58,255 bases of DNA, taken from positions 1 to 58,255 of the forward strand of contig CACZGA010000004.1 in NCBI GenBank assembly GCA_902780585.1, in the 5' to 3' direction. The notes beneath the pieces were generated by a model. That model ran no database searches. It was not told the DNA's origin and worked only from the letters and a program-made list of their open reading frames with translations. The DNA is from an uncultured Erysipelotrichaceae bacterium. GTDB lineage: Bacteria > Bacillota_I > Bacilli_A > RF39 > UBA660. Made by a program: the position numbers and the translations under genes. Shown in pieces: positions 2,331 through 29,222 of the stretch (its first letter is position 1; each line of letters opens with the position of its first letter).

Positions 2331-2867
2331 TCATGCGAACGTGAACACAGGCACCTTGCGAGTACGAGTACCCACAATCTGACCGTCACGGTTGTAACGT
2401 GCTGCGCGAACCTCGTTGATCTCAGCAACCTTCAAGGTCTTACCCTTGATAGCCTTCCAGACATCAAGGTCATTCGGACACTGATTGGCAGCATCATACA
2501 CATCGTGTACATCGTCCGTCTTGGCATAGGAAATAGTTCCAGTGGGAAGCATGTCCTCGCCATACTCTGCTACGGAACGGTCAAGAGCAGAGAAATACAG
2601 AGTCTTAGCACCGATAGTACCCTGAGCAGACTTGCAAGGTGCCACTACACCATACAATTCATTACCATTGAAGGTGTTCTTGAACAGACTCTTGTTGTCA
2701 GCAGGAATTGCCAACTCGTCTCCGATGGCAAACTGAGCTGCACCTGGGTCGCTCTTGGTTCTCTTACTAAGGCTGCTTTCAATAGCTGCACCACTGTTAC
2801 CTGTTCCCATTCTCTTCAGGGCGATCTCAACTGCACCCTGAGCATTCTTTACTTCATTTTGTGTCAT
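2331..2867 (-). CDS. hypothetical early protein
   Basis: A 178-aa protein starting MTQNEVKNAQGAVEIALKRM. It is soluble, with no membrane segment or signal peptide, and ends with a basic stretch (RTRKV) followed by PVFTFA. The stop is TGA. It has no internal TAG and its G+C content is visibly above that of the late region. It is the third gene of a minus-strand series reading left from the control region at 4059-4574, separated by 103 bases from the gene upstream. A short GTGGG/CCCAC hairpin at 2293-2308 lies just past its stop. I do not recognise the family. Confidence 0.8.
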   Translation of the reverse strand: MTQNEVKNAQGAVEIALKRMGTGNSGAAIESSLSKRTKSDPGAAQFAIGDELAIPADNKSLFKNTFNGNELYGVVAPCKSAQGTIGAKTLYFSALDRSVAEYGEDMLPTGTISYAKTDDVHDVYDAANQCPNDLDVWKAIKGKTLKVAEINEVRAARYNRDGQIVGTRTRKVPVFTFA

Positions 2868-2970: not shown

Positions 2971-3435
2971 TTACTCCTCGTCTAAGGATTGTTCCTTTAC
3001 TATAGGATACTTCTCAAGCATCTTAGCCACAAAGGCATCGACCTCAGTCTTCTCTGTGGTCAAATTGAGCCAGTCAGCCATTGGCATAGATTCCTCATAC
3101 ACCTTACCAGAAGTCCACTCATCCTTCTCCTTGTCACGAGAGATTTCACACTTCTTAAAGGTGACACGATCCAGAATCAGAGAATATCCGACAGGAGTAT
3201 AAGCGAAATATTGACGCCAATACTCATTGAAGTTACCCCAACGAGGTGACATGTCCATCTCAGGCTTGATACCTTTAAAGGTAAGTCCAACGTTGATAGC
3301 AGACAGATCCTCATTCTTACCACCAGCAGCCAAATCATTCACAATACCTGTGAGATCAACCCCATCTTCTGAAAATAGAAGTTGCTTCAGTGCATTTAAG
3401 GTCATTGCACTAATCTCGACCATACCCTGTTTCAT
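2971..3435 (-). CDS. hypothetical early protein
   Basis: A 154-aa acidic protein starting MKQGMVEISAMTLNALKQLL and ending QSLDEE, with a TAA stop. It contains aromatic-rich segments (about residues 64-85: RWGNFNEYWRQYFAYTPVGY) suggestive of a compact globular fold. No catalytic motif, membrane segment or cysteine cluster is visible. It is the middle gene of the three small minus-strand genes, with the same higher-G+C composition and standard code. Function unknown. Confidence 0.8.
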   Translation of the reverse strand: MKQGMVEISAMTLNALKQLLFSEDGVDLTGIVNDLAAGGKNEDLSAINVGLTFKGIKPEMDMSPRWGNFNEYWRQYFAYTPVGYSLILDRVTFKKCEISRDKEKDEWTSGKVYEESMPMADWLNLTTEKTEVDAFVAKMLEKYPIVKEQSLDEE

Positions 3436-3585
3436 ATTGTTTAATTGTTTAAGTTTGTTTATTCAGTTTGTAGTCTTTAAACCACCACAGAAAAACAATA
3501 TATACATACTGCTCTGCTGTAGACATTAGCAGGCAATACATATGGCTACGTTTTACCTATTGCCAGGCAGACCTGGCAAAAAAAT

Positions 3586-3607
3586 AGCCACCCGAATGGG
3601 TGGCTAA
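3586..3607 (-). terminator. rho-independent terminator after 3630-4058 gene
   Basis: On the minus strand TAGCCACCC-ATTC-GGGTGGCTA is followed by seven T. The 9-bp stem lies 22 bases past the stop of the gene at 3630-4058. A second perfect stem, TGCCAGG/CCTGGCA at 3562-3579, follows it. Confidence 0.8.
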
Positions 3608-3629
3608 AATCGAGAGAGAGTGGTGCGGT

Positions 3630-4058
3630 CTATTTCGTAACCACACCATAACGACCGTGAAAACCGTTGACACGACCGACAACGTGAGTCAAATTAAATT
3701 TGTAGCCGTTGTTTTTCAGGGCATCAAGCACATCATCATAGGTTGCACCCTCTTCAACAATGCCAGGTCGAGGAGTGAGGTTCCCATCATCTGTCACGAT
3801 AGCAGCTTTTCCAGAGAGAGCAGAGAGAGCCACAGCCTGCCCGTCGACATCGACGACAGGGTAAATCTGTTGCTGACCTTTTCGGTCGGTGTAGGTACCC
3901 TTAAAGAGAGCAATCTTCTTAGCGTTACCGCTACCAGTAGTTTTTACTTCGTGCTGTCCCGACGTAATGTCGAGCAAAGAACTACGGCGGTCTTTTTGTT
4001 TCAAAACGAGTCCGCTAAACTCGTTTGCCGTCATTGGCTGTAATCCATTCGTTGTCAT
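3630..4058 (-). CDS. hypothetical early protein ending in TAG
   Basis: A 142-aa protein starting MTTNGLQPMTANEFSGLVLK, first gene left of the divergent control region. It is basic, with Gly/Asn-rich turns and no membrane segment; the C-terminus reads VNGFHGRYGVVTK. Its stop codon is TAG (minus strand, 3632-3630), and a strong terminator stands directly after it, so TAG is very probably a true stop here. This contrasts with the right arm, where TAG is a sense codon. If TAG were read as Gln, translation would continue through the terminator stem. Function unknown. Confidence 0.8.
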   Translation of the reverse strand: MTTNGLQPMTANEFSGLVLKQKDRRSSLLDITSGQHEVKTTGSGNAKKIALFKGTYTDRKGQQQIYPVVDVDGQAVALSALSGKAAIVTDDGNLTPRPGIVEEGATYDDVLDALKNNGYKFNLTHVVGRVNGFHGRYGVVTK

Positions 4059-4574
4059 AAACGTAAAGATTTAATTGTGAATAATGTGGTCGGTGGCGCG
4101 AACCCCGCGAGTGTGAGGATACCCTCATACCTATTGGTATGTACAAGTTCTACGAATTGACTACGTTTTCCCAACGGGGAGCCCAGGGGGCTACCCGTTA
4201 GGGTGCCCCGTCACCTCCACAATTTTCAACAAAAAAATTTTTACAAAAAATTTCTAAAAAAATTTTTATTTCAAAAATTTTTCAAATAGAAGTGGAGGGG
4301 GGGGGGATCATAAAATACTTTTAAAAAATAAAAAATTTTAAAAAATTTTTATATTGGAGTATAACTCGAATGGGAAAATTCGAAGAATTTGCCCTTAAGT
4401 ATAGTTAATCTTAGGTATAGTAATAAGTATAGTTAGACGAAAAATGGTGCTCAAGTTTGATAATCCTATGTTCAAAGTAAAAAATTTTTACATAATTTCC
4501 TGCTCAACATCCGAAATTTGGTGCTTATCGAAAATAAATTTTGGAAAATGATTTTAGAAAAATAAATTAGAATT
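4059..4574. promoter_or_regulatory. divergent control region, possible origin
   Basis: This 516-base gap separates the minus-strand early genes from the plus-strand genes and probably holds both promoters. Near the minus gene are consecutive hairpins: GAGG-ATAC-CCTC at 4115-4126, CATACC-TATT-GGTATG at 4126-4141, and ACGGGG (4174-4179) / CCCCGT (4206-4211). They would lie in the 5' leader of the gene at 3630-4058. Then come CCTCCAC (4214-4220) and its complement GTGGAGG (4292-4298) around an A/T-only stretch, and a run of ten G at 4297-4306. Near the plus gene are three spaced copies of a GTATAGT element (4397-4407, 4414-4421, 4425-4435). Origin or operator roles are inference. Confidence 0.5.
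4397..4435 (+). repeat. three iteron-like GTATAGT repeats
   Basis: AAGTATAGTTA occurs at 4397-4407 and 4425-4435 with a shorter GGTATAGT at 4414-4421 between them, on one strand with starts about 11-17 bases apart. They lie about 140 bases upstream of the winged-helix gene at 4575, a natural candidate to bind them. Confidence 0.45.
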
Positions 4575-5303
4575 ATGAAACAACATATAGAATTGCCATC
4601 AGAAAAAGAAAATTCTGAATTAACTCCTAAGGATAAGCTAATATATTTAGCATTAAAAAGCTTTGAAAACAGTGAAACACATGATTGCTTTCCTTCCTTA
4701 GCTAAAATTTCAGAAAGATGTGGAGCTTCAGAACCTACAATTAGAAAATCTCTAAAGTTATTAGAATCTGAAGGATATATTAAAATAGAAGAGATAAATA
4801 AAAGAAAAAAGAGATATACATTTAGTCCTTATAAAAAATTTGAATGTTTCTCATATGATTTTTTATATAATAATGATTTAACCTTTACAGAAAAATCTTA
4901 TTTAGCGGCTTCTCAAGAATTCATGTTAAGTAAAGAAACAGGAAAAGGAAAGATAGAATATTCTAGTTATGAATTGTCTGATAAAATCAATATGCCTCCA
5001 TCCACTATAAGAAAATGTGAAAATTCATTAATAGCTAAGAATTACATGGAAATAGTTTATCAAGCCAAAAAAGATTTAGTAAATAATAATCATAAAGGTA
5101 CTAAGTATTATTTATTTGCTGAATATAATAAGGCTGTTTGTGATGCAATTATATCTCATGAAAATAGATTAACCACAGTAGAAGAGAAGATGGATAATTG
5201 GGAGAAAAAATATGAAGATAAATGTAAAGAAGCAGAAAATTATAAAAACGCTTATTTGCAATTAGCTAATAAGATTCAAGAAGAAAATAAAATAATAATG
5301 TAA
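4575..5303 (+). CDS. winged-helix DNA-binding protein, early regulator or replication initiator
   Basis: A 242-aa protein. Residues about 18-80 form a classic winged helix-turn-helix of the GntR/DnaD-like sort: a helix reading KDKLIYLALKSF, then CFPSLAKISERCGASEPTIR as the helix-turn-helix and KSLKLLESEGYIKIEE leading into the wing. A second similar unit follows (ELSDKINMPPSTIRKCENSL, about 137-156), so the protein has two wHTH units, as in Rep-type initiators and some phage regulators. Residues 195-240 form a charged coiled coil. The stop is TAA and there is no internal TAG. It is the first plus-strand gene after the control region with three short repeats. A replication or transcription role is inference. 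Confidence 0.75.
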   Translation: MKQHIELPSEKENSELTPKDKLIYLALKSFENSETHDCFPSLAKISERCGASEPTIRKSLKLLESEGYIKIEEINKRKKRYTFSPYKKFECFSYDFLYNNDLTFTEKSYLAASQEFMLSKETGKGKIEYSSYELSDKINMPPSTIRKCENSLIAKNYMEIVYQAKKDLVNNNHKGTKYYLFAEYNKAVCDAIISHENRLTTVEEKMDNWEKKYEDKCKEAENYKNAYLQLANKIQEENKIIM

Positions 5304-5305
5304 TT

Positions 5306-5866
5306 ATGTTATACTTAATTAAAGAATATGGTAAAAATAATAAAGAATATTTAAAAATAGGAAAAGCACATGATGTAAATAAAAGAATACAACAGTATAA
5401 TACTAATTGTGCTGAATTTGAATTAATAGATACTTTTGAAGGAAGTCTTCCAGAAGAAAGCTTATTACATTCTTTTTTAGAAAAATATAAAATAAGAGGA
5501 GAATGGATGGAATATAATAATGAAATACTTTTATTATGGAAATTATACAAAGAAATAAGACCTAAAATAAAAGAAAGCATACTAGCAACCGGAGAATTTG
5601 TTGAGGAAGAACTTTATAATTCTCAAATAAATTATTATCAAAATAAGATAGAAGAAGTACAAAATGAAATAAAATACTTAAAAGAAGATTGTTTACACAA
5701 ACTAGAACAATTAGAAAATAGAACTTCTAATTTTTCTGAACTATATAACGAAAGTACCAATTTAATTCAATTCATACTTAAAATAATTCCTTTAAACTAT
5801 AGAACTCAAATATTTGAAAAGTTTAAAGGAAAATTACAATATTTTAAATTTAAAGAGGAAATTTAA
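5306..5866 (+). CDS. GIY-YIG-like (T5orf172/MUG113) protein
   Basis: A 186-aa protein starting two bases after the previous stop. The N-terminal ~75 residues match the T5orf172 / MUG113 branch of the GIY-YIG fold: LYLIKEYG near the start, YLKIGKAHDVNKRIQQY (about 20-36) and a conserved-style Glu and His in LPEESLLHSFLEKYKIRGEW. The remaining half is a coiled coil with a hydrophobic C-terminus. Such domains occur widely in phages as stand-alone or DNA-binding-fused proteins. Nuclease activity is possible but not shown. There is no internal TAG and the stop is TAA. Confidence 0.65.
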   Translation: MLYLIKEYGKNNKEYLKIGKAHDVNKRIQQYNTNCAEFELIDTFEGSLPEESLLHSFLEKYKIRGEWMEYNNEILLLWKLYKEIRPKIKESILATGEFVEEELYNSQINYYQNKIEEVQNEIKYLKEDCLHKLEQLENRTSNFSELYNESTNLIQFILKIIPLNYRTQIFEKFKGKLQYFKFKEEI

Positions 5867-5914
5867 CATTTTTTAAATTTGCTTTATGAAAATAAGTAAT
5901 ATATTTATATCGTT

Positions 5915-6280
5915 ATGAAACAAGAAGAATTATTAAAACAACTCATATCTGAGTTGATGTCAATGTCAGAATTGCATCAAGAATATCAAGATAATGATAC
6001 TCACTTTGCAATAGATTCTAAGAAAGAAGGTAATAAATTAACAATAGAAGTTACCTTAAAAGAAAACAAAGATAAGAAAGAATTTGAAAGTTGGTTAGAA
6101 ACAGTAGATGATGGACTATTCTCAGAAGTTTTAGAAGAATTACAAGAGAAAGAAGGACTAACAAATCTAAATGATCTTTATGAAGGTAAAGATTATAGGA
6201 AAGTAATTAGTAGAGTTAAATCTAAAACTAAAGAAATAGCTGCAAGAAAAATTAAAGAATTGCAGAAATTTATTAATTAA
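5915..6280 (+). CDS. hypothetical acidic/charged protein
   Basis: A 121-aa, highly charged, mostly helical protein starting MKQEELLKQLISELMSMSEL. Stop TAA, no internal TAG. It lies 48 bases after the GIY-YIG-like gene and 64 bases before the suppressor tRNA, so it may share a transcript with the tRNA. Family not recognised. Confidence 0.7.
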   Translation: MKQEELLKQLISELMSMSELHQEYQDNDTHFAIDSKKEGNKLTIEVTLKENKDKKEFESWLETVDDGLFSEVLEELQEKEGLTNLNDLYEGKDYRKVISRVKSKTKEIAARKIKELQKFIN

Positions 6281-6316
6281 TATCGGCCGATGATGATAGA
6301 TATTAATTAATTTTTA

Positions 6317-6340
6317 AAGATTAGAAAGGCATCTAATCTT
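6317..6340 (+). other. hairpin abutting the suppressor tRNA
   Basis: A perfect 8-bp inverted repeat, AAGATTAG (6317-6324) and CTAATCTT (6333-6340) with an 8-base loop, ends four bases before the tRNA. It could attenuate read-through into the tRNA, or position RNA processing at the tRNA 5' end. Confidence 0.6.
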
Positions 6341-6344
6341 ACTT

Positions 6345-6416
6345 TGGTTTATGGTGTAATGGTAGTCACAGGGGACTCTAAATCCTTTAGTCTGGGTTCG
6401 AATCCTAGTAGACCAA
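6345..6416 (+). tRNA. suppressor tRNA, anticodon CUA, probably Gln
   Basis: A full cloverleaf can be drawn. Acceptor TGGTTTA (6345-6351) pairs with TAGACCA (6409-6415). The D-arm has GTG/CAC. The anticodon stem GGGGA/TCCTT encloses the loop CTCTAAA with anticodon CTA. The T-arm is CTGGG-TTCGAAT-CCTAG, and the discriminator is A at 6416. The CCA end is not encoded. The CUA anticodon reads UAG. The weak U1-A72 first pair is a hallmark of bacterial tRNA-Gln, so Gln is the likely charge, which agrees with TAG falling in Gln-rich contexts downstream. Confidence 0.93.
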
Positions 6417-6418
6417 CT

Positions 6419-6757
6419 ATGGAAGTAACATTTAAATATAATAATAAAATTATTACTACTCCAAATTTAGAAAAGAAATTAAAGAGAATGAAACTTCAAT
6501 TATCTGATATAGAAATAATTGAAACTCCAATTAAAAAAGAAAAACCTTCTAATGATGGAATAGAAGATTATATGAAAGATAAAGAACAAGTTATAGTTCG
6601 TTCAACTAAAGATAATATTAGAAGAGTGTGTTATGTTTTAAAAGGAACAAGACCTCCAATTAAAAAGTTATTTGAAAAACAAAAGTGGAATGGTAAAACA
6701 GGAATAAAAGATTTTACCGATAAATATTTTATGACAATGTATTATGAAGAGAACTGA
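6419..6757 (+). CDS. hypothetical basic protein directly after the tRNA
   Basis: A 112-aa basic protein, starting MEVTFKYNNKIITTPNLEKK. An open frame continues upstream to 6344, but that part lies inside the tRNA, so the ATG at 6419, two bases past the tRNA 3' end, is the real start. It includes a stretch VIVRSTKDNIRRVCYVLKG and ends in TGA. No family recognised. Because it is so close to the tRNA, 3' processing of the tRNA would leave a leaderless or near-leaderless message. Confidence 0.65.
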   Translation: MEVTFKYNNKIITTPNLEKKLKRMKLQLSDIEIIETPIKKEKPSNDGIEDYMKDKEQVIVRSTKDNIRRVCYVLKGTRPPIKKLFEKQKWNGKTGIKDFTDKYFMTMYYEEN

Positions 6758-6905
6758 TTTATTTCGTTAGCTTTATGAAGCTAATATAGATGAGATTAAA
6801 GCAATAGAACAATTATCAATAGATAATAATATGCTAGATAATGGCTACTATCTTTGGTGGCACGATCAATTAAATAAACTTTCATTAGACTCTGATAGAG
6901 TCTAA
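6744..6905 (+). CDS. small hypothetical protein, first gene with in-frame TAG
   Basis: A 53-aa protein, readable only if the TAG at codon 9 is Gln: MKRTDLFR-Q-LYEANIDEIKA and on to a TAA at 6903-6905. It overlaps the previous gene by 14 bases. The continuation is protein-like (acidic helix followed by YYLWWHDQLNKL). It is the first TAG-containing gene after the suppressor tRNA. Function unknown. Confidence 0.6.
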
Positions 6906-6951
6906 TTTTTTCAAATTACTTTTTCATAACTTTCTTTTTTTTAAACAAAAA

Positions 6952-6986
6952 AGCCCGGTAGATTAATTTCTATCGGGCTAATTTTA
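6952..6986. terminator. bidirectional terminator between converging genes
   Basis: AGCCCGGTAGATT and ATTTCTATCGGGCT form a long stem at 6952-6979, with an A-run to the left and T-rich sequence to the right. It sits between the plus-strand gene ending at 6905 and the minus-strand gene ending at 6990, so it can stop transcription from both sides. Confidence 0.85.
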
Positions 6987-6989: not shown

Positions 6990-8411
6990 TTAATCAATAG
7001 GATTAAGTATCATTTCAAATTTACTGATATCGAATGTAGAATGTCCTTCATCATTTCTATTTTCATCAATTAAGAAGTCATTATCTTCAAATATAGTAGG
7101 TAATGAAACTATTCCCCAAGTTTTTCTTGGATTATTTGGATTTCCTCCAAATATATCATTTCCCCAAGGATTAACTTCTTTAACAGTTCCATTAGGATAA
7201 GTATATTTAAATGTAATCGTAGAAGCTAATTCTCCTGTATATTCTACAGTCATTTTAGGATACTTTGCACCATCAGCATTTACTGCACCTTCCCAACAAC
7301 GCTCACAATTCTCATAAATATAATTTCCATTATCATCTAATATATAATCATCAGTTCCTTGTTCTTTCTAAGCATCAGCTATAGTAGCAACTCTTTGCTC
7401 AGTAGTATTCCATAAATCCTCTTTAGTAGGAGCATTTTCCTAATCAGACCAAGCATAATACTATTCTAATACAGTATTACTATTATATGATTCTTCGTCA
7501 TTTATTAAAGCATAATATTTAGAAGTATCATTAGCTTTCTTATATTCATAATAAGTATCAATACTAGAATCAGCACATAAGGATTCAAAATTTACACTTT
7601 CACATTCTCCGTTATTATATGTTATATTTAAGAATGTAGAAAGAGATTTAGGAAGATTACTTACTTGAGTATTCTTAATATTATTAGCAATTCTCTCCAT
7701 TGCAGAGAATGTTAGGTATTTAAAAGCATTTCCATATTTATTTATGAACTTTTCAGCATAAATAGCTTTTACAACTTCTAATACAACGTCTTCAGACCAA
7801 ATATTAATTGAATATAAATCTTCACCAATACCTAGTTTAATACTATTAACTTTAAAAAGACTATCTCCTCTAGTAGCTAATCCCTAATTATAGTTAGATC
7901 CTTTTAGGAAAGATTTATCAATATATTCTTCTGTCATATATTCATAATTTCCAGGACTTAACCAGAATGGCAAAGAATTCATTACTAGTTGAACATTTCT
8001 TAAATCAAAATTATCTTTTCCTTTTAATAATCCTTTAATATAATCAAATATTTCTTGATTAAATTTATTTATGTATTTATTGTCAAAAACATCAGGATGA
8101 GATTGAACAACTTTTCCATCAACTACTTTATCTCCTTCTTCAATTAAATACTATAATGGGAAATAACGTTTAATAGTTCTTTCTGAATCTGTAATAAATT
8201 CTGCTACAATATAAGGAACTTTATCTATATAAGCTTCTGGCTGAAGATCTACTATCATTCCATCAGCTTTACTTGAATCAATATCTACTAAATAACTACT
8301 ACAACAATCTATATCAAACTTCTTCTTTTTTGATTCAATATCAAAGATTGTATCGTTTGATATGTAATAAACGTTTTTTCTCCATTTGAGATTTGTTAAA
8401 TTTTTAATCAT
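6990..8411 (-). CDS. hypothetical late protein (TAG-recoded)
   Basis: With TAG read as Gln, one frame runs from the ATG at 8411 to a stop at 6990, giving 473 aa. Read with the standard code it breaks into pieces ending at TAG (minus-strand CTA near 8150, 7886, 7460, 7440 and 7370). The N-terminus reads MIKNLTNLKWRKNVYYISND. The protein is soluble and acidic, with Tyr- and Asn-rich patches. I do not recognise it. Recoding, length and position in a late-type block suggest a virion or late accessory protein. It follows the 1122-aa gene by five bases, so both are probably on one minus-strand transcript. Confidence 0.8.
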
Positions 8412-8416
8412 AATGT

Positions 8417-11400
8417 TTAAGACATAAACTAACTATATGCTCCTAAATTTTCTCTATTAATTGTTTGTCCATTAATTGTAACTTCTTTAGAAGGAGCACC
8501 ATTATCTACTTTTTTATTTAATAAATTACCTAATTTGTTCATAGCAAAGTTTCCAGCAGCTCCGATTATACTTTGAATCGTACTTGTTCTTTGTGCAGTT
8601 TCTTGCTATTTTAATTCTAGTTCTCTTTGTTCTTTTTCCTTCTACTACTTTAAAAGTTCAGGAAGTTTTAGCTAATAATTTAACCAGCTAGTAAAAGCTG
8701 TACCTCCCATAGCATTAGGATTCTAAATTTGATTTTGAATTTCTAATCCAAACTATCCTTTTTTAACTTTCTTACTAGCAGCTTTACTCATCTTAGGATT
8801 ACTATCTAAAACATTAACTCCTGTTCTAAAAGCTCCTCCTTTCTTTAATCTAAATCTAAATTTTTGTCTATATTCTTCTATTAAAGCTTTTCTTTCTTTC
8901 CAAGCCTGTTTATATGCAGGAGTTCCTTTAGCGTGTTTAGATAATCTAAGTTCTATATTATGATGTCTTTTAGCAAATGTAGAATACTTACCTAAAACAT
9001 TCCAATCTTCTGTATCCTAAGCAGCAGTTCTTGTACTTCTTCCAGAATAAGTATGTCTAAGATCTCCATCTTCATAAGTTTCATTATACTTTGCTTTTAA
9101 CTACTAATTTTTAGAAGGAGTTTCTTTCTTTTCTTGATAACGTTCTTTAGCAGTCCTTTTCGGAGCTTTCTATTCAATCCTCTAAACAGAATTTAATTTT
9201 TTCTATAAAGGCTAAGCTTGTTTAGGATATCTTATGTCAATAGGATCAAATCCATCTAATTTTAATTCATAAGAAGGTCTTCCTGTAGGTAACTAAGCAT
9301 TTATCTAATTTTCAGGATTCATTTTATTCCAATCCTAAACAGCAAGTTTCTCAGCTGGATTAGTTGGAGGATTTTTCATATTTCCTAGTTTAGTATCTCT
9401 TACACTCAATCCAGTTTCAGATATTGATTGAGTTCCAGATGTAGGAGTTACTTCATTACCTTTAATAAATCCTTTTCCGTAAGTAACATTATCAATATTT
9501 CTAGCATTTAGTATACTTTCTGCATTACTTTCAAACGATTTTAATATATTTTTATCACCAGTTCTAAAAAATTCCTTCCATTTTCCTATATTTTTTGTTA
9601 CTATATCTTTAGCCATAGAAGGAAATTTATTAATTAATTCAAATAAATTCGGAGCTTCTTTTTCTATTATTTCAACTCCTTTATTCATTCTTCCAGGAAG
9701 AATAGTAGGAGTTCCTGTTTGTGGACCAAACTTAGCTCCTGGCTAAGGTCCTCCTTCTTTAGAACCGTAGAACAAAGCTAATGGACTATCAGAAGATCCG
9801 AATTTAGCAGCACCAAAGAAAGGCATAGATCCAATACCTTTACCAGTAGTATCTCTTCTTCTATCTACATTTGTTATTAATCCATACTAACCTTTTAGTA
9901 TTCCTCCATCTTTATATACCTATCTTTTTAATTTAAATTCTTCTATAATACTTCCACCAAGACGATGTTTGAAGTGTCTTGCGTTGTCAGCAAACGTAGC
10001 TCTCTTTACTAAAGTAGGATTACCAGAAGCTTTAGCTTTTCTAATACATTCATCTGTTACTTTACCTCCGCAATAATCTGTGAACTTTCCTCTATTTTCT
10101 TTTTTAATATGGATTCCACTTCCTTTCTTTAAAAATTCTAATACATTCATTTTACCTCCTTGTTTCTTTTTGTATAAAAATGGGTGTGGTATAATTATCT
10201 CTCCGTTAACCACTTTAGCATCAATTCCTCCATACGGATTAACCCAATTATGAAAGGCTTCTAAAAATTCCTACTATGTAGCTTCTCCTGTTTTAGTTTT
10301 TTCTAATAAATCTGAAATAAATTTATTATCAATACTTTGACTATTAAATGTAGTAAATCCATCAGGAGAATATCTTAGATAATATGGACTATTTTCCCTG
10401 TTAGCCTATTTTAATAAAGCTAAATATGAATCAGTAGATAATCCGTCTTCCCTTCTTTTCCATTTTTCAGGATGCATTAACTAATTCCTAATATCTTCCC
10501 AAGTAGTACGTCCTGAACCAATAATATTCCCATTATTATCTTGTCTATATCCTTTTTTAGAAAGCTCTTTAAACTATCTTATTAAAGTAGCTCCTTTTGG
10601 TAACATTCCTTCATCTCCAGATAGATAAACACCAGGACGCAAACTCTATTGTACTCCACTCCAAAAATCTCGCATTATATTTTTACTTATTCTAGGAGAT
10701 TGAGTTTCTATTAATGTTTTTTTAGCTAACTCCTATTCTGGTGTTTCCGTAATAAAATGTACAGCATCATTTTTTGGGGCTGTTAAAAATATTTTACTAT
10801 AACCATGTCTACCAGATCCAGCAGAAGCTTCTCCTACCCTAATATTGAATTCTGGAGAAATATTAAACATCCTATAAGAGTTATAACCAATTCCAAAATT
10901 TCCATTTCCGTCTGTAACTAATTCATAAGTTCCTCCATTTGGCCTATTCCAGGCCCAAGATAATCTTCCACTAGAAGGAACTCCATCATCAATAAGCTAT
11001 CTTAAGGCAGAAATATTTCCATTTGGAGATACCCATGATGGTTCAGCAGTTTCCATATTAATTGTGGGAAGTTGTCTATGCTAACCACTATTTATATACT
11101 GATTTAAATCTTCTAAAGCATCTTTCTAAAATCTATTTAAATTAGTTTTTTCATGTTTAGTTAATCCTAATTTTGTAACTAAATCTATTTTAGAAGGTCT
11201 TTCAAAAAATTTTAAAGAAGTTAATCCAGATTCATTCTATTTAACAACTGGCTAATATAATAAAGAAGTAGCTTGTGAAGTTATTGTAGGAACAGTTCCA
11301 TTAAAAGAATTTTTAAAAGCATTGCCTACAAAATATCCTCTTCCCCAATTTCCTAATTGAGTAGTAGGAGCATATTTAGCAATATTCCATAATCCAGTTT

Positions 11401-11785
11401 TAGCTAAAGCTCCGATTCCATTTAATCCTACTCCTCCTACATAAAATGAAAGAAGAGGATCTGCTCCAGACATTCCAACAATTTGAGGTCTCTATTCATA
11501 TTCATCTTTTTTACCTCTAAGTTTTTCTGATATAGTAACTTTTCTTTTAAGAGTAGGACGCATTTCCATTCTAGATTTTATTTCTTCTTCTTTTCTTTTT
11601 GCTTCCTATTCCTAATACTACTAAGCCTAAACTCCTTCTTCTCTATATCTATTTCCTCCAGAATTATTCATTCCAGGAACTCTAATAACTTGACTTTCAA
11701 GCTAAGCTATTTGTTCTGGAGTAAATTTTATTCTTAGTGGATCTCCAGCTGCAGTCTGCATCTTTCTAATCTATTTTTTATTCAT
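8417..11785 (-). CDS. large late virion-associated protein (TAG-recoded)
   Basis: A 1122-aa frame, start ATG at 11785, stop TAA at 8419-8417, rich in TAG (the first at codon 5, MNKKQ). Separate standard-code fragments at 11252-11473, 9920-10213 and 9335-9688 all lie in the same frame, which confirms one gene. A central segment (about residues 545-610) has the pattern KKGSGIHIKKENRGKFT, then two Cys, then KRATFADNARHFKH. I recall this pattern from virion-associated proteins of gut Bacteroidota phages. The C-terminal part is Lys/Arg-rich and helical, ending near GAAGNFAMNKLGNLLNKK, which could contact membrane or DNA. The exact role is unknown; a virion cargo or tail-associated protein is the best guess. 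Confidence 0.8.
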
Positions 11786-11932: not shown

Positions 11933-12610
11933 ATGATTTTAGAATGGATTAAAAATGTGTGGGAGTTTATAAATAAAATCCATCCTGAAACAAGAAGTTT
12001 AATAATTATTATACTTTTTGGGTGGATGATGTACTCACAGATAACAACTGAAACTGCAAAGTAGATAGATGAAAAACACAAACAAGAAATTGTTAATAAT
12101 AAAAGAGCTGAAAGATACTCTAGAGAAAAAGCTATTGATATTAATGAACAAGTTCAACAAATAGCTGAAATAGATTAGGACGCTTTTGATGTATTACTTT
12201 TAAATTATCATAATAATACTCAAAGTTTACAAGGTTACAAATATTTATATTTATCTTGTCTCACCGAAGCTCCGAGATCATTAGATACTCCTACTTTACA
12301 ACAGTAGTGGAATAAATTAGACTATATATATTACGCAGACGAACTAGCAAAAATACACGGGCAAAGTTTTGTTAAATTTGAAAATATTGAAGATATGCAA
12401 CATAATCTTCCAAAACTTTATAGATTAGTAAAAGCAAGCGAAACAAAAGCAGTTTCTTTCTTTACTATAGAAGGACACGATTCACAAATTGGATTAATTA
12501 TTATATTTTATAATGACTCTAAGAAATATGACTATAAATATGCAGGAAGAATTTTACCACACATTTAGAAACTTGCTTTGTTGTTAGATTATGATAGAAG
12601 TAACAAATGA
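11933..12610 (+). CDS. membrane-anchored protein next to the amidase, possible holin/spanin function
   Basis: A 225-aa protein with four in-frame TAG. It has one clear N-terminal membrane segment (about residues 22-40, RSLIIIILFGWMMYSQI), followed by a charged helical stretch (about 45-75) and a soluble domain. It overlaps the amidase start (ATGA at 12607-12610), the usual sign of a lysis pair. A single N-terminal anchor with a coiled stretch suits an inner-membrane spanin-like or signal-anchor role; a classical holin usually has more membrane segments. The family is not recognised. Confidence 0.65.
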
Positions 12611-13212
12611 AAACAATTATATTAGGAACAGCTCATTTAAAAAGTACACCTGGAAAATGTTCTCCTGATGGAAAATTTAAAGAGTATGAATATTCTAGAG
12701 AAGTATGTAAGGCTATAAAACTAATTTTAAATAATTTAGGATATAAAGTTTTCATTGATATAGAAGATGATGATTTAAATGTTACACAATCTTAGGAATT
12801 ATGTCTAAGATGTAAAGTTGTTAACGATTTATAGAAGATTTATGGGAATTGTATATACATTTCAATTCATGTGAATGCATCATCTTCTGATGGAAAGTGG
12901 CATAATGCTACTGGATGGGAAGCTTATACTTCTGTAGGAGTAACATCAGCAGATAGGTTAGTTAAATATTTATATGATGCTGCTGAAAATAATTTATTAG
13001 AAAAGAAGATAAGAAAAGACTTTTCAGATGGAGATTCTGATAAAGAATCCAATTTTTATGTTCTTAAACATACTTTATGTCCTGCTGTACTAACAGAAAA
13101 TTTCTTTTAGGACAATAAAGAAGATGTTGAATTTTTAACAAGTCCATTAGGATTTCATTAGATAGTGAGAATTCATGTAGAGGGAATACTAAAATATATA
13201 CAAGATAATTAA
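12607..13212 (+). CDS. N-acetylmuramoyl-L-alanine amidase (Amidase_3), endolysin
   Basis: A 201-aa zinc amidase that would cleave the bond between muramic acid and the stem peptide. Visible motifs are ILGTAH with the first metal His (H10), an acidic YEYSRE segment supplying the Glu ligand (about E28), SIHVNAS with the second His (H88), and LTENFF with the catalytic Glu (E164). The length fits a stand-alone Amidase_3 catalytic domain. Four TAG codons must be read as Gln; without them the gene is cut into fragments at 12795 and 13110. There is no signal peptide, so release would depend on a membrane partner, probably the preceding gene. Confidence 0.9.
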
Positions 13213-13240
13213 GTACAATATTTAAAATGTTATATGTTAT

Positions 13241-14146
13241 ATGGAATATGATAAAATTAATAAAGATGTAGGATTTATAGAGAGTACTCATACTTATAAA
13301 AATTTAAAAGACGATTCTATACAATATACGTCTGTTACTACAATGATTGGTAAATATGAACCTGAATTTGATAAAGAATTTGTCTCAAAATATAAAGCAA
13401 TCGAAAGATTATTATCTCCTTCTGATTGGAAAAAAGAAAAAGGAGGTTTATGGAGATCTAAGAAAATACCTAAAGATTTTTTAGAAGTATATAATATATC
13501 AGAGAATGAACTTAATCAAGTTCAACAAGACATTCTCGATGAATGGGCTAAGATTAATAAAGATTCTTGCGAAAGAGGAACTAAAATTCATTCTCAATTG
13601 GAAAATTCATTCTATAAAGCTGGTTCCAATATTACTTTAAAAAAATTTGGAATTGGAGGTAAATTTGAATGTAAAAAGAATTATAATGACTTAGACTTGG
13701 AATATGGTATATATCCAGAATATTTAATTTATTATGATGATCCTAAATTAGATTTACATATTGCTGGACAAATTGATTTATTAGTTAAAAACAAAAATGA
13801 TATTCACATCATTGACCACAAGAGTAATAAAAAAATCGACTTAAAAGGATTTTATAATAGTTCTACTAGAACAACAGAAAAACTAAAATATCCTTTAACA
13901 AACTTAGATAATTGTAATTTTAATGTTTATCAACTTCAATTATCTACTTATGCTTGGATAATTCAAAAAATTAATCCAAAGTTTGTTATTAAAAGTTTAA
14001 CTCTTAATCACTATGATCATGATGGAAATAATACACTTTATCCATGTTCATATTTAAAAGATGATGTAGAAAAAATGTTAAAGCATTTTGCTAAACAACA
14101 AAAATTAGAAAAACAAAAACAAAAGTATGCACGTATAGAATATTGA
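13241..14146 (+). CDS. PD-(D/E)XK family nuclease
   Basis: A 301-aa protein with a RecB-like nuclease core: an upstream Glu in ERGTKIHSQLE, then IAGQIDLLV (D179), HIIDHKSNKK (D192-x-K194) and a conserved-style QLQLSTYAW helix. This is the E...D...DxK...Q signature of the PD-(D/E)XK superfamily. It has no internal TAG and ends in TGA. It could take part in DNA processing, recombination or packaging; crAss-like phages often carry such a nuclease near the late genes. The next gene begins 20 bases before its stop. Confidence 0.85.
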   Translation: MEYDKINKDVGFIESTHTYKNLKDDSIQYTSVTTMIGKYEPEFDKEFVSKYKAIERLLSPSDWKKEKGGLWRSKKIPKDFLEVYNISENELNQVQQDILDEWAKINKDSCERGTKIHSQLENSFYKAGSNITLKKFGIGGKFECKKNYNDLDLEYGIYPEYLIYYDDPKLDLHIAGQIDLLVKNKNDIHIIDHKSNKKIDLKGFYNSSTRTTEKLKYPLTNLDNCNFNVYQLQLSTYAWIIQKINPKFVIKSLTLNHYDHDGNNTLYPCSYLKDDVEKMLKHFAKQQKLEKQKQKYARIEY

Positions 14147-14342
14147 TGAAAGACAAAGGATATGTAATGAATGTCCTATTTATAATCCCGGAAAAGGAAT
14201 TTGTAATCCTAAATTATGGGTTAATCCAGATACTAATGAAGTAAGTACACATGCTAAAACAGGATTTATCCAAGGATGTGGATGTATATTAGCAAGTAAG
14301 ATAAAGAATTTATCTAATCATTGTGTTGCAGGGAAATGGTAA
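14127..14342 (+). CDS. small zinc-ribbon-like protein
   Basis: A 71-aa protein with one TAG (codon 4, MHVQ). Its cysteines are arranged as CNECPIY, C in GICNP, GCGC and a last C before VAGKW, which looks like one or two zinc-binding knuckles. It overlaps the nuclease gene by 20 bases and the next zinc-ribbon gene by one base. The partner is unknown; it may bind nucleic acid or act in head assembly. Confidence 0.7.
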
Positions 14343-14557
14343 TGACTCTCTTTAAAAAATTACGAAATATAATAATAGGTAACTGGAGAAACTTAACTGG
14401 TTACACATCAGATGAAACTAAACGTAGAAGATAGATATGTAATAAATGTGATTCAAATATAGGATTTGCTGGAATAAGATATTGTGAACAATGTGGTTGT
14501 CCAATAAAATCTAAGACTACAGTTGAATCAGAAAAATGTTTAATGAATAAATGGTAA
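14342..14557 (+). CDS. second small zinc-ribbon-like protein
   Basis: A 71-aa protein with one TAG (RRRQ). It has CNKC and CEQCGC clusters about 20 residues apart, a C-x2-C...C-x2-C zinc ribbon, and a basic N-terminus. The C-terminus ends NKW, as in the preceding gene (GKW), and the spacing (ATG overlapping the previous TAA) suggests the two are translated together and may be related. Confidence 0.7.
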
Positions 14558-14558
14558 T

Positions 14559-15149
14559 ATGGAACAAAGACCTATTTTAAGTGAGAAAGAAAAAATAGCA
14601 TTGATGAATGCTGGAGATAGTACAAGTAGGATAATGACCTTAGATGGAACTACTGCAGATGATGTAATTCAACAAAGACGTACTAAAGAATTTAATAAGC
14701 AAGTTGATGCTTATGTTGAAAAATTAAACGAACATTCAGCTAATTTAGAGGAATATTCAAAACAAATAGCAGAGAATGTTGAATCAATAGAAATAATGCC
14801 TATCGGTCCATATATAATGGTTAAGTTGTTTGATGAAAATCCATTCCAAAGAATTGTAAGAGACGATAAATCAGGATTAATTCTTGACTTAGGTGGACAG
14901 AAACCTCAATATAAGAATACTGATAACGGACAAATAGAAGAAGAAGAGAACTTTATAAAAGTTGGAGTAGTACAAGAAGTAGGTCCAGAATGTAAATATA
15001 TACAACCTGGAGATACTATCTTTACAACTAAACCATCTTTAGTTCCAATTCCTTTCTATAAACAAAACTTATATCAAGTTGCTGAAAATAGAGTTATGGC
15101 AGTAGTTAATGAAGGACTTACAGAAAGATTTAAAAATTTAAAGAAATGA
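14559..15149 (+). CDS. GroES/Cpn10-like protein
   Basis: A 196-aa protein. Residues 1-70 are helical and charged. Residues about 75-190 follow the co-chaperonin pattern: IMPIGPYIMVKLFD (the P-x-G-x-x-x-V-K strand), SGLILDLGG, VGVVQEVGPECKYIQPGDTIF, and YQVAENRVMAVVN at the end. Phage T4 gp31 is a known phage co-chaperonin used for capsid folding, and a similar role is possible here. The mobile-loop region is less clear, so this is a fold-level call. No internal TAG. Confidence 0.55.
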   Translation: MEQRPILSEKEKIALMNAGDSTSRIMTLDGTTADDVIQQRRTKEFNKQVDAYVEKLNEHSANLEEYSKQIAENVESIEIMPIGPYIMVKLFDENPFQRIVRDDKSGLILDLGGQKPQYKNTDNGQIEEEENFIKVGVVQEVGPECKYIQPGDTIFTTKPSLVPIPFYKQNLYQVAENRVMAVVNEGLTERFKNLKK

Positions 15150-15370
15150 TGAATGACGAGAAAATATACTTCTCTCCTGGTTAGAGAGTAATCTTAAAAT
15201 AGGAGATTGATTACAAACCTATAATGGTTGTATAGAAAGTAGAAAGAAATATTATTAGAAATAGAGAAGGTAATGATTTACTTAGAGGGATCAAATGTCG
15301 TTGGTTTACAAAAGATGGATTCTTATAGGAAGCAGTCTTCTCTACTAAAGATTTAAAATTAATTGATTAA
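15146..15370 (+). CDS. small hypothetical late protein
   Basis: A 74-aa protein with four TAG codons (GQR, KQE, VQK, LQE contexts). Two consecutive ATG codons (15146 and 15149) are possible starts and overlap the previous stop. The sequence reads as a small beta-rich domain (YFSPGQRVILKQEIDYKPIM). Function unknown; it lies in the block leading to the terminase. Confidence 0.65.
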
Positions 15371-15375
15371 CTACT

Positions 15376-16011
15376 ATGGATGAAAATAAATTAATGATAC
15401 AGTTCCTTTCTGAAGAATTAGGAACAAATGATCCAAAGAAAATTTAGAACTATTTAAAAGGATTAGATGAATCTAAACAAAAAGCTTTAGCACAAAAATA
15501 CCAATAGTGGAAAGAAGCTAAGAAAAAGAAATAGGCTACTAAAGCAGCTCATGGTGCTAAATTAGATTATATAAAATCACTTAAACATATTTGTCCAGAA
15601 GGAGAAGAACTTGTTTATTTTAAACAAGGAGGTTCTGTAAAATGTGGTTGTGTAGGAAAGAAGTTAGAAGAAGGAGCTAAAGTTAAAAAGGCTTCTACTG
15701 GAGCTGTTACTAGATTTAAAGAAGGAAAGAAAGTATCAAATAATGATTCTACAAAAATTGTAAATGCTATAGGTACTATCACTGGAACTAAATCTGGATT
15801 TGATAGAGCAGCTAAAGAGAAAAAAGAAAAAGAAAGAAAGCCAGTAACTAATGTTGCAACTTAGGATAAGAATCCTGGTTCTACTAAACAACCTATGCTA
15901 GAAGCTCTAGAAAGACAACACCATAAGAATAATTATAAAAATTTATAGAGTGGTGGAGCAGTAGCCAAATTTAAATCTGCTAAATGTGGTTCTAAAATGA
16001 AGAAAAAATAA
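15376..16011 (+). CDS. Cys-containing conserved late protein
   Basis: A 211-aa Lys-rich protein with five TAG codons. A segment CPEGEELVYFKQGGSVKCGC (about residues 75-94) resembles a C...G...YF..GG...C.C pattern that I recall from many gut Bacteroidota phage proteins. A second Cys/Lys cluster ends the protein. It is probably virion-associated and DNA- or membrane-interacting because of its strong positive charge, but the role is not known. Confidence 0.7.
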
Positions 16012-16032
16012 TTAGTTAAATAAATATGTAAT

Positions 16033-16611
16033 ATGAATATATGGGATTATGATTAGAAAACTGGAAAAGCAGTATTAGTTACTGCTGATTTAGTTTTAAT
16101 TGATGAATTTAAAAAACTATTAGAACCCTCAAGAAATAAATGTAAAGAAGATTCTTCTGGATTAAATCATATCCGAGCAGATAAAGAATTTACTTATATT
16201 TATCTTGCTATTGATTGGAAATCTCCTTATAGTGGATTTTCTAATTAGGAAAAACACGAAGCAGCTTTATAGGATGCAGAATTAACTGAAGAAGAATGGA
16301 ACGATCCCACATTTAGAGCTGCTTGTCGAAAATATGTTGCTTTGTAGGATTCTAATAGATATGTAAGATTATTACACGCAAGTTAGGAAGTAACTGATAA
16401 AATTATAGATTACTTTGAAAACTTAGATTTAAATGCTACAGACGATTAGGGTAAACCTTTAGTTAAAATTGCAGATATTCAAAAAGCAATGGATTAGTCA
16501 GTTAAGTAGATTGAATCTTTAAAATAGATTGAAGCTCTTGTTAAGAAAGAACTTACCGAACAAAGCTAGATTCGTGGTGGTGCTGTTGAAGGATTTATGC
16601 CTGATGTATAA
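16033..16611 (+). CDS. conserved protein upstream of terminase
   Basis: A 192-aa protein with ten TAG codons, one of the most TAG-rich genes for its length. It starts MNIWDYDQKTGKAVLVTADL and has a coiled C-terminal part (about 150-180) in which several Gln are all TAG. It overlaps the terminase start by one base (TAATG). The position suggests a role near packaging, such as a small terminase or an assembly factor, but no small-terminase DNA-binding motif is visible, so function stays open. Confidence 0.75.
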
Positions 16612-18947
16612 TGGAAGAAATTAAAAAGAAAAGAGGAAGACCTCGCAAAAACCCAGAACCAGAAATTCCCAAAGAAATAAAATCCATTATAGAAGAGGTT
16701 TAGGAAAAACAAGATGAACTTCAACAGCAAATAGAAGAACTTCCTAAAGAGCCTATTCATAAAGAAGGAGAATGGGATGTCAAAATAGGAGATCCTATTC
16801 CTTATTTTGATAAAAGGCTTTCTTACGAATTAACTGGTTATAGACCTATTACAGAAACAGAAGGATTAGATTTTGATCCATCTTGGTTTACAGAAGCTCG
16901 TGAAACATTCTTAAAAACCGAAAGATATTGTTCTTACTATCCTGGCTCTAAAATGTATAGAGATTTCTGGAATGAAGAATATAGACGATGTAAAAATGGA
17001 ATGACAATAAATGGATATACCATTACTGGATTTAATTATTATTTCTTAAACTACTATCAATTACCTAGTACAGAACAAGAAAAGGCTGGTGATAGTCGTA
17101 CTGTTATATTTCCTAAGTTCTTTGTATATCAATATGAATTCTTTCATTACTTTGAATTATGTAGAAGTCTTAGAAAGAATGTTGCTATAATGAAAAATCG
17201 TGGATGTGGAGCAAGTGAAATGAATGCTTCTATATTTGACTGTTTCTTTAACTGTTTTAGAAATAGCATATGTCTTCTTACAGCATTTGATGGTAATTAT
17301 GTTACTAAGACTCTTGATAAAATATGGAATGGAATATCGTTTACTGATGATAATACTCAAGGTGGAATGTTGAAACTTAGACAAGTTGTTAATACTGCTA
17401 CTAAAAAACGTTCTACTTATTATAAAGTAGTAAATGGTTAGAAAATTGAAACTGGTTTTAATTCTCAAATTGAAGGTATTATTGTTGATAAAGATAGAAA
17501 GATGAGAGGAGATCGTGTTCAAATGTTATTCCTTGAAGAGGCTGGATCTAATCCAATTCTTGAAACTTCTTTTATTAAAGCTGAAGAACTTGTTACTGTT
17601 GGTGGTAATAAGGTAGGTGTAATAGTAGCAGCTGGAACAGGTGGAGATGAAGGTCCGGCATTAGCAGGACTTAATAAAGTATATTATAATCCTTCTGATT
17701 TCTTAGTTTTACCTTTTCATCATAATTATACAGAAACAGGTGAATGGGTTGAGACTGCATATTTTATGCCTGCATATATAACTATGAATAAAAAAGAATA
17801 TGTAGGAAGTAGAGGTGAATATATATTAAAAAAGTAGAAAGAATATTATATTGAAAGAAGAAATAGTATTAAAGATCCACAAACACTTCTTAAACATAAA
17901 GCAGAGCAATGTTTTACAGCTGAAGAAGCATTTGCTGCTGAAGGTGTTAATAAATTCAATAAACTTAAAATTGCAGACTAGATTATTCGATTAAGAATAA
18001 CTAAGAATAAACCTACAATACAAAGAGGTTATATGCAATTCATCTTTAAAGGTTCAAGTAGAGAAAGAAGTGATATAACTGGAGTAAGATTTGTACCTAA
18101 TCCAAATGGATCTGTTTTTATATTGCAACCTCCTTTATGGGAAATGACTAATCAAAAAGAACCAGGAGAATCTATAGAAGAATACGAAGAAAGAAGAAAT
18201 CAAGATGAATTTGTTACTGAAAAAATAAATAATCTTTATGTTGGAGGAATTGATGGAATTGATATAGGACAGACTGAAACATCTGACTAGACTAGAGATC
18301 CTTCTAAATTCTGTACTGTAATCAAAAGAAGAATATATGGATTAAAAGAACCTACTTATGTTGCTTATTATTTAGATAGACCTAATGATGTAAGAGATGC
18401 TTATATTCAAACTATAGGTCTATTAATGTGGTATAATTGTCAAGCAAATCTTGAAGCTACTCGTATGTCTGTACTTACATATGCTAGAGATAATAAATTT
18501 ATGCAATATTTTATGAAACGTCCTAGAGTATGTAGTGGAGACATAAATAAAAGAAAACTAAATAATAATTAGTATGGAACAACAGCTACAACAGCTATGA
18601 TTGATCACCAAACTGATTTGATAAGAGATTATATTGAAGATTATTGTCATAATATATGGTTTTTAGAGATGTTAGATCAATTAAATAAATATACTGATGA
18701 AAATAAAGGTAAATTTGATATTGTAGCAGCTATGGCAATGGCAGAAGTAGGTGATGAAGAATTAAGAGATATAGTTCCTAAGAAATAGGAGGTTGTATCT
18801 CAAGAGTTTTAGGATATAGGTTACTATATTGATGAACATGGACATAGAAGATTTGGAATTATTCCAAAACAAAATAATTAGACAAGAGCATCATGGAATC
18901 TACATGATGGAAATGAAACTATAATAAGTAATCCAAGGTATAGATGA
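16611..18947 (+). CDS. terL: terminase large subunit (TerL)
   Basis: A 778-aa packaging motor, ATPase plus nuclease. The N-terminal tail is basic (KKKRGRPRKNP). The P-loop region is NRGCGASE (residues 196-203), which deviates from the usual GxGKS/T. Walker B is MLFLEEAGS (E309-E310) and the coupling motif is AAGTGG (about 340-345). The C-terminal RNase H-like nuclease shows VGGIDGIDIG (D548, D551), a Glu in ANLEATRMS, and GKFDIVAAMAMAE. Standard-code fragments at 16953, 17502, 18033 and 18597 share one frame and are joined by TAG read as Gln (nine TAG). It is slightly longer than typical TerL and is followed by a one-base-overlap ATGA start. Confidence 0.93.
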
Positions 18948-19231
18948 ATAATATGGAGAAAGCCATCTACGATATTATTGAAAAACGTTATAAGCGTAAA
19001 TTTGTAGGTGACATTAAAGTGACTAAATTAGGGAAGGGTTGGGCAGGTTATAAAGTTGTTCTATATAGAGAACATTCTGCCATACCTTTAATATCAATAT
19101 CTGCTGATTTAGAAGCAGAAGATTTTTTAAAATATGTTGAACAAGAACTAATATCCAGATAGTTACATAAAGTTCAATCTTTCACTGGAGTAAAAAAAGA
19201 ACTAGAGGATGAAGTACGAAGAACTTGTTGA
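18944..19231 (+). CDS. small protein between terminase and portal
   Basis: A 95-aa protein with one TAG. It starts inside the terL stop (ATGA) and overlaps the portal start by 23 bases. It is a mixed alpha/beta, basic protein (KRYKRKFVGDIKVTKLGKGW). Family not recognised; a head-assembly accessory protein by position. Confidence 0.65.
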
Positions 19232-21386: not shown

Positions 21387-22063
21387 AAATTTTAAATGAT
21401 GGTGTAACTTTTTTTGAGAATAATCCTACTATATAGACTGATGTACTTGGAAATATTATTATAATGGATGATATAATATATCCAATTAAAGGTATGTCTA
21501 AAGACGATTGCTTTTCTATATATGTTGTACAAAAGAATACAAGTGCTACATCTAGAGTAATTTATTATTAGATAGGCAATCCCGGAGAAACTTTTACTCT
21601 TCCAGCTACTGATGGATATATAACTTTCTGTCATATAGTACTTCCAAATAAAGATTTTTTCGACTCTCATCCAGGATAGTTTACATATTATTCTGATGGA
21701 GTTGGAAAAATTTACAATAGTCAAAACGAAGAAGTAGAAGTTTAGCTTATTGTAGAAGTTAATGATTCTACTTTAATTAGACATATGCATAACTTCTTTT
21801 CTGTATTTCATTTAAGAAAGTGTTATGTATCTTTATGTTAGAAGATATTTAAAGATAGAGCATTTGATAGATGCTTTAATAATAAAATAGACTCATAGTT
21901 AATTTTAAAAAGAGATTTAGTTTGGGCAGCACTGAATGTTATTCAGTATATGATAGATTTTAATCAACTTGCGGAAGCACAAAGATTATTAGAACGCATC
22001 AATGGATGTAATGGACTATGCTCTAGTGAAGATACTGGAGATAAAGGATGTGGTTGTGAATAA
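21383..22063 (+). CDS. conserved late protein with Cys-rich C-terminus
   Basis: A 226-aa protein with six TAG codons. The N-terminal half is beta-rich; the C-terminal half is helical and ends LLERINGCNGLCSSEDTGDK and then a GCGCE tail. The CNGLC motif is, as I recall, a recurring feature of a conserved crAss-like protein next to the portal. It overlaps both neighbours by a few bases. Probably a structural or connector protein. Confidence 0.7.
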
Positions 22064-22353
22064 TGAGTTGCTGTAAATGTTGTTCTCCAATAATTCCAAT
22101 TTTTGAGTTTGATATAAGTAATGATATATTTATTTCAAATACAAAGGACGTAAATTTGCCTATTGTACCAGAAACAGATATAGACTTGCTTAAAGACAAA
22201 ATAATTTGTGAGTATAAACTAATAATTAGTAAATTGGAGCAAGGTCATAAACCAGATTTGGAGTTTCTCTTGGAAGAAATTTCAGCAGTTGATTTAGAAA
22301 AAGAATTAGATAATCGAGAATTTGTTATTCAATATTACTTAAATAATAATTAA
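22063..22353 (+). CDS. small Cys-rich late protein
   Basis: A 96-aa acidic protein starting MSCCKCCSPIIPIFEFDISN, with five Cys in the first seven residues or so that may form a metal site. No internal TAG. It overlaps the previous TAA by one base. Function unknown. Confidence 0.65.
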   Translation: MSCCKCCSPIIPIFEFDISNDIFISNTKDVNLPIVPETDIDLLKDKIICEYKLIISKLEQGHKPDLEFLLEEISAVDLEKELDNREFVIQYYLNNN

Positions 22354-22357
22354 TATT

Positions 22358-27717: not shown

Positions 27718-27729
27718 TAATTTTATTTT

Positions 27730-29025: not shown

Positions 29026-29030
29026 TAATT

Positions 29031-29210: not shown

Positions 29211-29222
29211 AAATAATAAAAT

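Follow-up and report, generated by a model that had tools for sequence, protein, structure and literature searches.

The stretch of DNA analysed here (the window) is an entire contig of 58,255 bases (CACZGA010000004.1), which had been binned in a 1.75-Mb bacterial metagenome-assembled genome; host contigs that were sampled have 27-33% GC. Judged by its genes, the contig is part of a crAss-like phage, and close to its left end it carries an operon with a predicted amber suppressor transfer RNA (tRNA) of anticodon CTA, located where a set of genes in the standard code meets a set in which TAG is used as a sense codon. To the left of a divergent spacer lie genes that we call the early arm, and to its right those of the late arm (Table 1). 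Read from the spacer, the operon comprises genes for an initiator-like protein, a T5orf172-type protein and the protein o121, the suppressor tRNA (tRNA-CTA), a gene that we call 'post', a gene for 53 amino acids and a terminator-like hairpin.

From about position 4312 rightwards the window has crAss-like phage sequence, with capsid, terminase, portal and amidase genes recognised by profile matches. The major capsid protein is of the Crassvirales type (PF23898 Crass_capsid, E 5e-13, 48.7 bits with a cut-off of 27), and the large terminase gave tblastn matches in 136 phage records, including the crAss-like cr55_1, cr1_1 and cr109_1, to which it is 26-28% identical over 80%. The nearest large relatives in IMG/VR measure 175-183 kb. 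Eighteen relatives were fetched for comparison, two through the initiator (G099 and G100) and 16 of the 35 terminase matches, mostly the longer ones (G101-G116). Together with the window this makes 19 records, of which G104 and G114 have one cassette in common. G102 and G104 have end repeats of 127 bases and were counted as complete.

Table 1. Coordinates of the arm-boundary features and of the recoded and TAG-free genes to the right
Position	Strand	Feature	Basis
2331..2867	-	Early-arm gene, 178 amino acids, stop TGA, no TAG	Gene call; homologue beside the G107 initiator
2971..3435	-	Early-arm gene, 154 amino acids, stop TAA, no TAG	G115 homologue, E 2e-23
3585..3606	-	Intrinsic terminator after the TAG stop of 3630-4058	Stem 3606-3585, then seven T
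3630..4058	-	First early-arm gene, 142 amino acids, stop TAG	G107 homologue, E 2e-8
4059..4574	.	Divergent spacer, putative origin of replication	Three TAAGTATAGT-like repeats at 4394-4435
4575..5303	+	Replication-initiator-like protein, 242 amino acids, no TAG	HTH_36 1.4e-16, DnaD_N, phrog_8102
5306..5866	+	T5orf172/MUG113-domain protein, 186 amino acids, no TAG	Domain match
5915..6280	+	o121, 121-amino-acid protein, gene preceding the suppressor tRNA	
6345..6417	+	Amber suppressor tRNA, anticodon CTA	ARAGORN; Rfam tRNA, 56.8 bits
6419..6757	+	'post' gene, 112 amino acids, no TAG; ATG at base +2 after the tRNA	
6744..6905	+	53-amino-acid gene with TAG at codon 9 (6768-6770), the first such in-frame codon on the right	
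6884..6906	+	Terminator-like hairpin at the operon end	
6952..6979	+	Another terminator-like hairpin, located between converging sets of genes	
6990..11785	-	Two recoded genes running towards the operon, with 5 and 40 TAG	
11933..58255	+	Late arm, recoded; includes amidase/endolysin, terminase, portal and capsid genes	Gene calls, profile matches
13241..14146	+	TAG-free island, exonuclease	phrog_298; TAG at 0/13 glutamine sites
14559..15149	+	TAG-free island, 196-amino-acid protein, weak GroES-like match	phrog_3188, E 1e-4; TAG at 0/13 glutamine sites

Distribution of TAG codons

According to the original prediction, genes left of 6744 have no internal TAG, TAG is a sense codon to the right and the tRNA is placed at the boundary; all of this was borne out. 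None of the eight genes left of 6744 has an internal TAG, and TAG occupies 0 of their 50 glutamine (Gln) codon sites, while in the 33 right-arm genes of at least 100 amino acids it occupies 307 of 712 (0.43), a difference with P ~6e-13 on the assumption of independent sites, which they are not fully. At least one in-frame TAG is present in 30 of these 33 genes. Opposite the TAG codons of the window, relatives carry glutamine at 196 of 507 residues other than TAG, a 10.9-fold enrichment relative to background, and TAG again at a further 159 positions. On this comparison, TAG is read as glutamine in the right arm (genetic code 15). The operon at 4575-6757 is TAG-free despite its late-arm direction of transcription. 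At its end, the open reading frame (ORF) 6744-6905 has the appearance of a real gene; ORFs resembling it in G101, G102, G108 and G115, inspected by eye, have aspartate at codon 9, so that the TAG at this codon is private to the window among these records. Both complete relatives have a TAG-poor and a TAG-rich half of the genome, and tRNA-CTA lies where the two meet. The boundary between standard-code and TAG-recoded gene sets is thus real.

The early arms of relatives are TAG-poor over tens of kb, and the initiator, counted in 11 records including the window, has TAG at none of 115 Gln sites. Terminase, portal and other late-arm genes of the relatives use TAG at 0.30-0.55 of their Gln sites. 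In nine relatives the genes corresponding to the two TAG-free islands of the window likewise have hardly any TAG (3 of 106 Gln sites in the exonuclease, 0 of 77 in the 14559-15149 gene).

The cassette and the putative origin in related phages

The tRNA-CTA is found at the arm boundary in 17 of the 19 records, with an o121 homologue as the preceding gene, 11-352 bases away, and the relatives retain the order initiator, o121, tRNA-CTA. The other two, G100 and G109, have neither tRNA-CTA nor o121; both contigs run from a point within the late arm to one in the early arm and thus seem to lack the boundary. With the o121 profile, the worst match beside a tRNA scored 1.9e-4, and no other ORF of any record did better than 0.26. 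When o121 alone was the IMG/VR query, 12 loci were obtained, seven being records already in our sample and five new, and a tRNA-CTA lies downstream on the same strand in all 12. At L137, L139 and L140, inspected by eye, other proteins replace the initiator, with o121 and the tRNA kept. Because it precedes the tRNA in 17 of 19 records and at all five further loci found through it, o121 appears to be tied to tRNA-CTA by evolution.

No convincing match was obtained for o121 in Pfam, PHROGs, NCBIfam or PDB sequences, nor for 'post' in PHROGs or NCBIfam. Compared with PDB folds, the o121 model (predicted local distance difference test, pLDDT, 84) gave a best Foldseek E of 0.08 and a best VIA-align Z of 5.0 over 62 residues, to a nucleoporin, which is not convincing; the best E for the 'post' model (pLDDT 77) was 1.9. 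Two single-sequence queries did not find o121 in 50,697 phage records, nor did it turn up in the genome-contig collection. Such misses mean little, since the o121 profile matches MT835539, which the single queries had missed. The ATG of 'post' is at base +2 after the tRNA in G099, G102, G108 and G112, as in the window.

In MT835539, a recoded GenBank record from the human gut, o121 (4e-5) and 'post' (3e-5) flank a tRNA-CTA whose anticodon is interrupted after its second base by 1,003 bases that include an HNH ORF; ARAGORN missed the gene as it is and called tRNA-CTA once it was joined. L203, a rumen contig, has an insert of 202 bases at the same anticodon site, and its joined sequence was called tRNA-CTA as well. 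This insert matches group I intron family RF00028 (E 1.7e-9, 42.2 bits, under the gathering score of 50). The interrupted tRNA-CTA genes at L187 9976-11052 and L203 5319-5594 hold different inserts at one and the same anticodon site (one containing an HNH ORF, the other a group I intron), and standard calling misses both. In the non-recoded MT835470, of which the 34-kb stretch 83715-117447 was examined, neither tRNA-CTA nor o121 was found.

Other variation was seen in and around the cassette. The cassette tRNA-CTA of G101 has a long variable arm (90 bases), and a second tRNA-CTA call in the same record (54896-54973) was left uncounted, its anticodon stem having mismatched pairs. A tRNA of anticodon TCA, a possible opal suppressor, occurs in the early-arm tRNA cluster of G101, G108, G110 and G112. 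The T5orf172/MUG113 gene separates the initiator from o121 in the window and in G099; in several other relatives this insertion is missing. Farther left, a noncoding element at 674-842 of the window, also present in G102, G104, G108 and G115, has three nearly invariant blocks of 24, 31 and 22 bases, the middle one recurring in 16 IMG/VR contigs overall. Five of these 16 element-matched loci have o121, four with a called tRNA-CTA and one with an intron-split one, and most of the others stop short of the arm boundary; L201 has no tRNA-CTA and no o121, and its position relative to the boundary could not be fixed.

Several features hint at a start of replication in the divergent spacer. The match of the 4575-5303 protein to phrog_8102 (replication initiation) has an E of 1.3e-16. 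Three or four TAAGTATAGT-like repeats are present in all 12 sequences upstream of initiators, where shuffles expect 0.35-0.85. The local cumulative GC-skew minimum of positions 1-7000 falls inside the spacer, at 4283, and in G101, G102 and G104 the cumulative curve has its minimum at most 8 kb from the initiator and peaks at +91 to +95 kb. Tandem repeats of 21-22 bases occur in eight relatives (G100, G101, G102, G104 with its twin G114, G108, G112, G115 and G116), the repeat sequence upstream of the initiator varying from phage to phage. These signals suggest that a bidirectional replication origin may be situated at the code boundary.

The TAG stop of the first early gene

The gene at 3630-4058 does end in TAG with a strong terminator behind it, in agreement with the original prediction: on the minus strand the stem 3606-3585 is followed by seven T. 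Terminator-like sites number 6 in positions 2000-7200 and 2.8 ± 1.6 in shuffles. The G107 homologue likewise ends in TAG before a terminator, and one gene of G104/G114 has this layout as well. It had further been proposed that the suppressor tRNA would extend the 3630 protein past its stop late in infection, unless the early message has gone, and this part was not supported. With TAG as glutamine, the frame stays open, without TAA or TGA, for 51 codons and runs into the terminator after about 16. As the terminator comes before any TAA or TGA, the ribosome would be expected to run off or stall on a stopless message, giving no defined longer protein, and no sign of selection for read-through was seen. 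A designed run-off at early-gene TAG stops was considered and rejected, because a stop followed by a terminator without an in-frame TAA or TGA is not in excess among TAG stops (2 of 3, compared with 9 of 20 for other stops).

Few early-arm genes end in TAG (28 of 445), with 6 among the 23 genes at most 3 kb from the initiator and 22 among the 422 farther away (Fisher P = 0.0017, uncorrected for kinship). G100 and G114 were excluded from this count, and two TAG-ending near genes of G107 were lost to the overlap filter. That late-arm genes end only in TAA or TGA is an artefact of gene calling and was not used. Four of the 18 fetched relatives have genes for transfer-messenger RNA (tmRNA), namely G104 (4032-4431), G105 (4443-4839), G110 (35726-36093) and G112 (28801-29195); one may speculate that a phage tmRNA could rescue ribosomes stalled on stopless messages. 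Also in the left part of the window, positions 1057-1795 form a stretch of 739 bases without a convincing ORF, 80% identical to G107 15912-16630 and without an Rfam match, which possibly encodes a large noncoding RNA.

A possible switch of code and competing explanations

We consider it probable that the region forms the head of the genome's recoded half, where a suppressor-tRNA operon at the origin-side boundary enables translation of the late genes. The two gene arms would diverge from the putative replication origin, with TAG (almost) absent from the early arm and from the first late-arm operon, and this operon would supply the initiator, o121, the amber suppressor tRNA and 'post'. Once the operon is transcribed, the tRNA, most likely charged with glutamine, would compete with release factor 1, TAG could be read and full-length products of the capsid, packaging, tail and lysis genes would be made. 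Maturation of the tRNA at its 3' end would leave 'post' with a nearly leaderless message, because the 'post' ATG follows the tRNA so closely. A switch of code that is timed, as the original prediction suggested, is plausible; we infer the early/late timing, and also that the tRNA may be co-transcribed with the initiator and the code change coupled to the start of replication.

Several observations weigh against this explanation. Tandem iterons in the window itself do not reach significance (41 of 200 shuffles were equally good); for the window, as for G099 and G107, the strongest tandem-repeat signal lies elsewhere or lacks significance. Promoter-like sites show no excess (25 vs 22.4). The initiator of G101 is exceptional in having TAG at 4 of 13 Gln sites (the homologue at G101 71251-71970 has 6 in-frame TAG in its ORF), and TAG also occurs in the o121 gene of 6 of 23 records (8 of 111 Gln sites), so that the cassette is TAG-poor, not TAG-free. 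Recoded TAG in left-arm genes, which the original prediction had named as contrary to it, is absent from the window (0 of 50), but strongly recoded early-arm genes exist in at least six relatives (G101, G102, G107, G108, G112 and G115), with TAG at 18 of 33 sites in a 516-amino-acid gene of G102, 24 of 51 in G108 and 25 of 43 in G112. G103 has TAG at 17 of 64 sites in its first 10 kb. One recoded early-arm family, with N-terminus MNKLVSKNPIQRFK, is found in G100, G101, G102, G108 and G112, and we take it to resemble virion proteins. Given these recoded early-arm genes, the rule is 'by gene class' and not strictly 'by arm', which suggests that the code follows gene class more than gene place. 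Finally, avoidance of TAG by late genes, the capsid included, fits selection for yield as well as timing.

A more specific form of the proposed switch, which we hold only tentatively, is a dedicated code-switch module triggered by the start of replication with o121 as helper. One transcript would deliver initiator, suppressor tRNA and o121, and the latter might weaken release factor 1, guard or charge the tRNA, or regulate the operon.

Yield without timing is a less likely explanation, under which the tRNA is always present and TAG is avoided by genes that need efficient translation or are made under weak suppression. It would account for the TAG-poor capsid gene, whose product is expected in bulk late (1 of 12 Gln sites in the window, 1 of 40 in four relatives), and for the few TAG in gene 52534-53601 (1 of 49 in relatives) and in the exonuclease, yet it leaves unexplained the location of the tRNA at the arm junction in 17 of 19 records and the scarcity of TAG in almost the whole early arm when most late genes have TAG at 0.3-0.5 of their Gln sites. 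Still less probable is a suppressor tRNA directed mainly at the host, reading through host amber stops, with phage recoding as a by-product. A role of this kind is proposed for crAss-like phages in portions of two papers (Yutin 2021, PMC7886860; the zeta paper, PMC12386605), and amber terminates 18 of 98 ORFs of at least 150 amino acids on eight host contigs, but neither the arm-wise split nor the fixed place of the tRNA is predicted by it. A chimeric assembly, with a foreign left 4.3 kb joined at a G-run near 4300, was favoured at first on account of a GC jump at ~4300 (38-49% GC in the left 4.3 kb), of DNA similarity to L003 that starts at 4312 and of left genes without matches in first searches, and was then rejected as extremely improbable since homologues of all four left proteins occur next to the initiator, in the divergent arm, among G107, G115 and G116, and the left noncoding stretch also matches G107 and G115. 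The homologue of 2331-2867 adjoins the G107 initiator (E 1e-57; weaker in G115 and G116), and gene 3-527 has homologues in the divergent arm of G115 (3e-105) and G116 (5e-62); with such homologues beside the initiator, the code boundary is no assembly join.

The switch of code that we propose has to be seen beside known systems. TAG recoding of late genes has been described in crAss-like phages (Yutin et al. 2021, PMC7886860; Peters et al. 2022, PMC9523058), and the current hypothesis in the covered parts of these papers is a switch in time, late use having proteome support. As in the code-15 phages described there, TAG stands for glutamine mostly in late genes, a CTA suppressor tRNA is present, early genes follow the standard code and the arms lie on two replichores. 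Unlike those accounts, as far as their covered parts go, the phages studied here have a fixed initiator/o121/tRNA-CTA operon at the origin-side arm boundary and a protein family tied to the suppressor tRNA. For suppressor tRNAs linked to theta ribozymes, also in phages and of Gln type, the covered part of Kienbeck et al. 2024 (PMC10879173) proposes tRNA release as control of the code switch. In contrast with those systems, no free trailer follows the tRNA here, as the 'post' ORF starts at +2 (window and four relatives), and in two relatives an insert cuts the anticodon. Rfam gave no match to a theta ribozyme (hepatitis delta virus-like) near the tRNA in 1-7200, a search in which the published motif itself was not run. 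Zeta crAss-like phages, in the covered part of PMC12386605, likewise have large genomes (~155-177 kb), suppressor tRNAs and two gene blocks counted from a predicted origin, and several of them keep a CTA tRNA without recoding, unlike the recoded phage of the window.

The initiator/o121/tRNA cassette was not found described in the literature searched, a coverage outside which Borges 2022 falls; as far as that literature goes, the fixed cassette and its o121 partner are new, and late-gene recoding was already known. The trigger of the code change in recoded phages is called poorly understood in the covered part of Kienbeck et al. 2024 (PMC10879173). The position of tRNA-CTA beside a likely start of replication suggests how a phage may time this change, and the fixed operon makes the question of the trigger testable, through the timing of the operon, the binding partner of o121 and replication as a clock. 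The TAG-containing initiator of G101 and the intron-split tRNAs are natural variants on which the same model may be tested.

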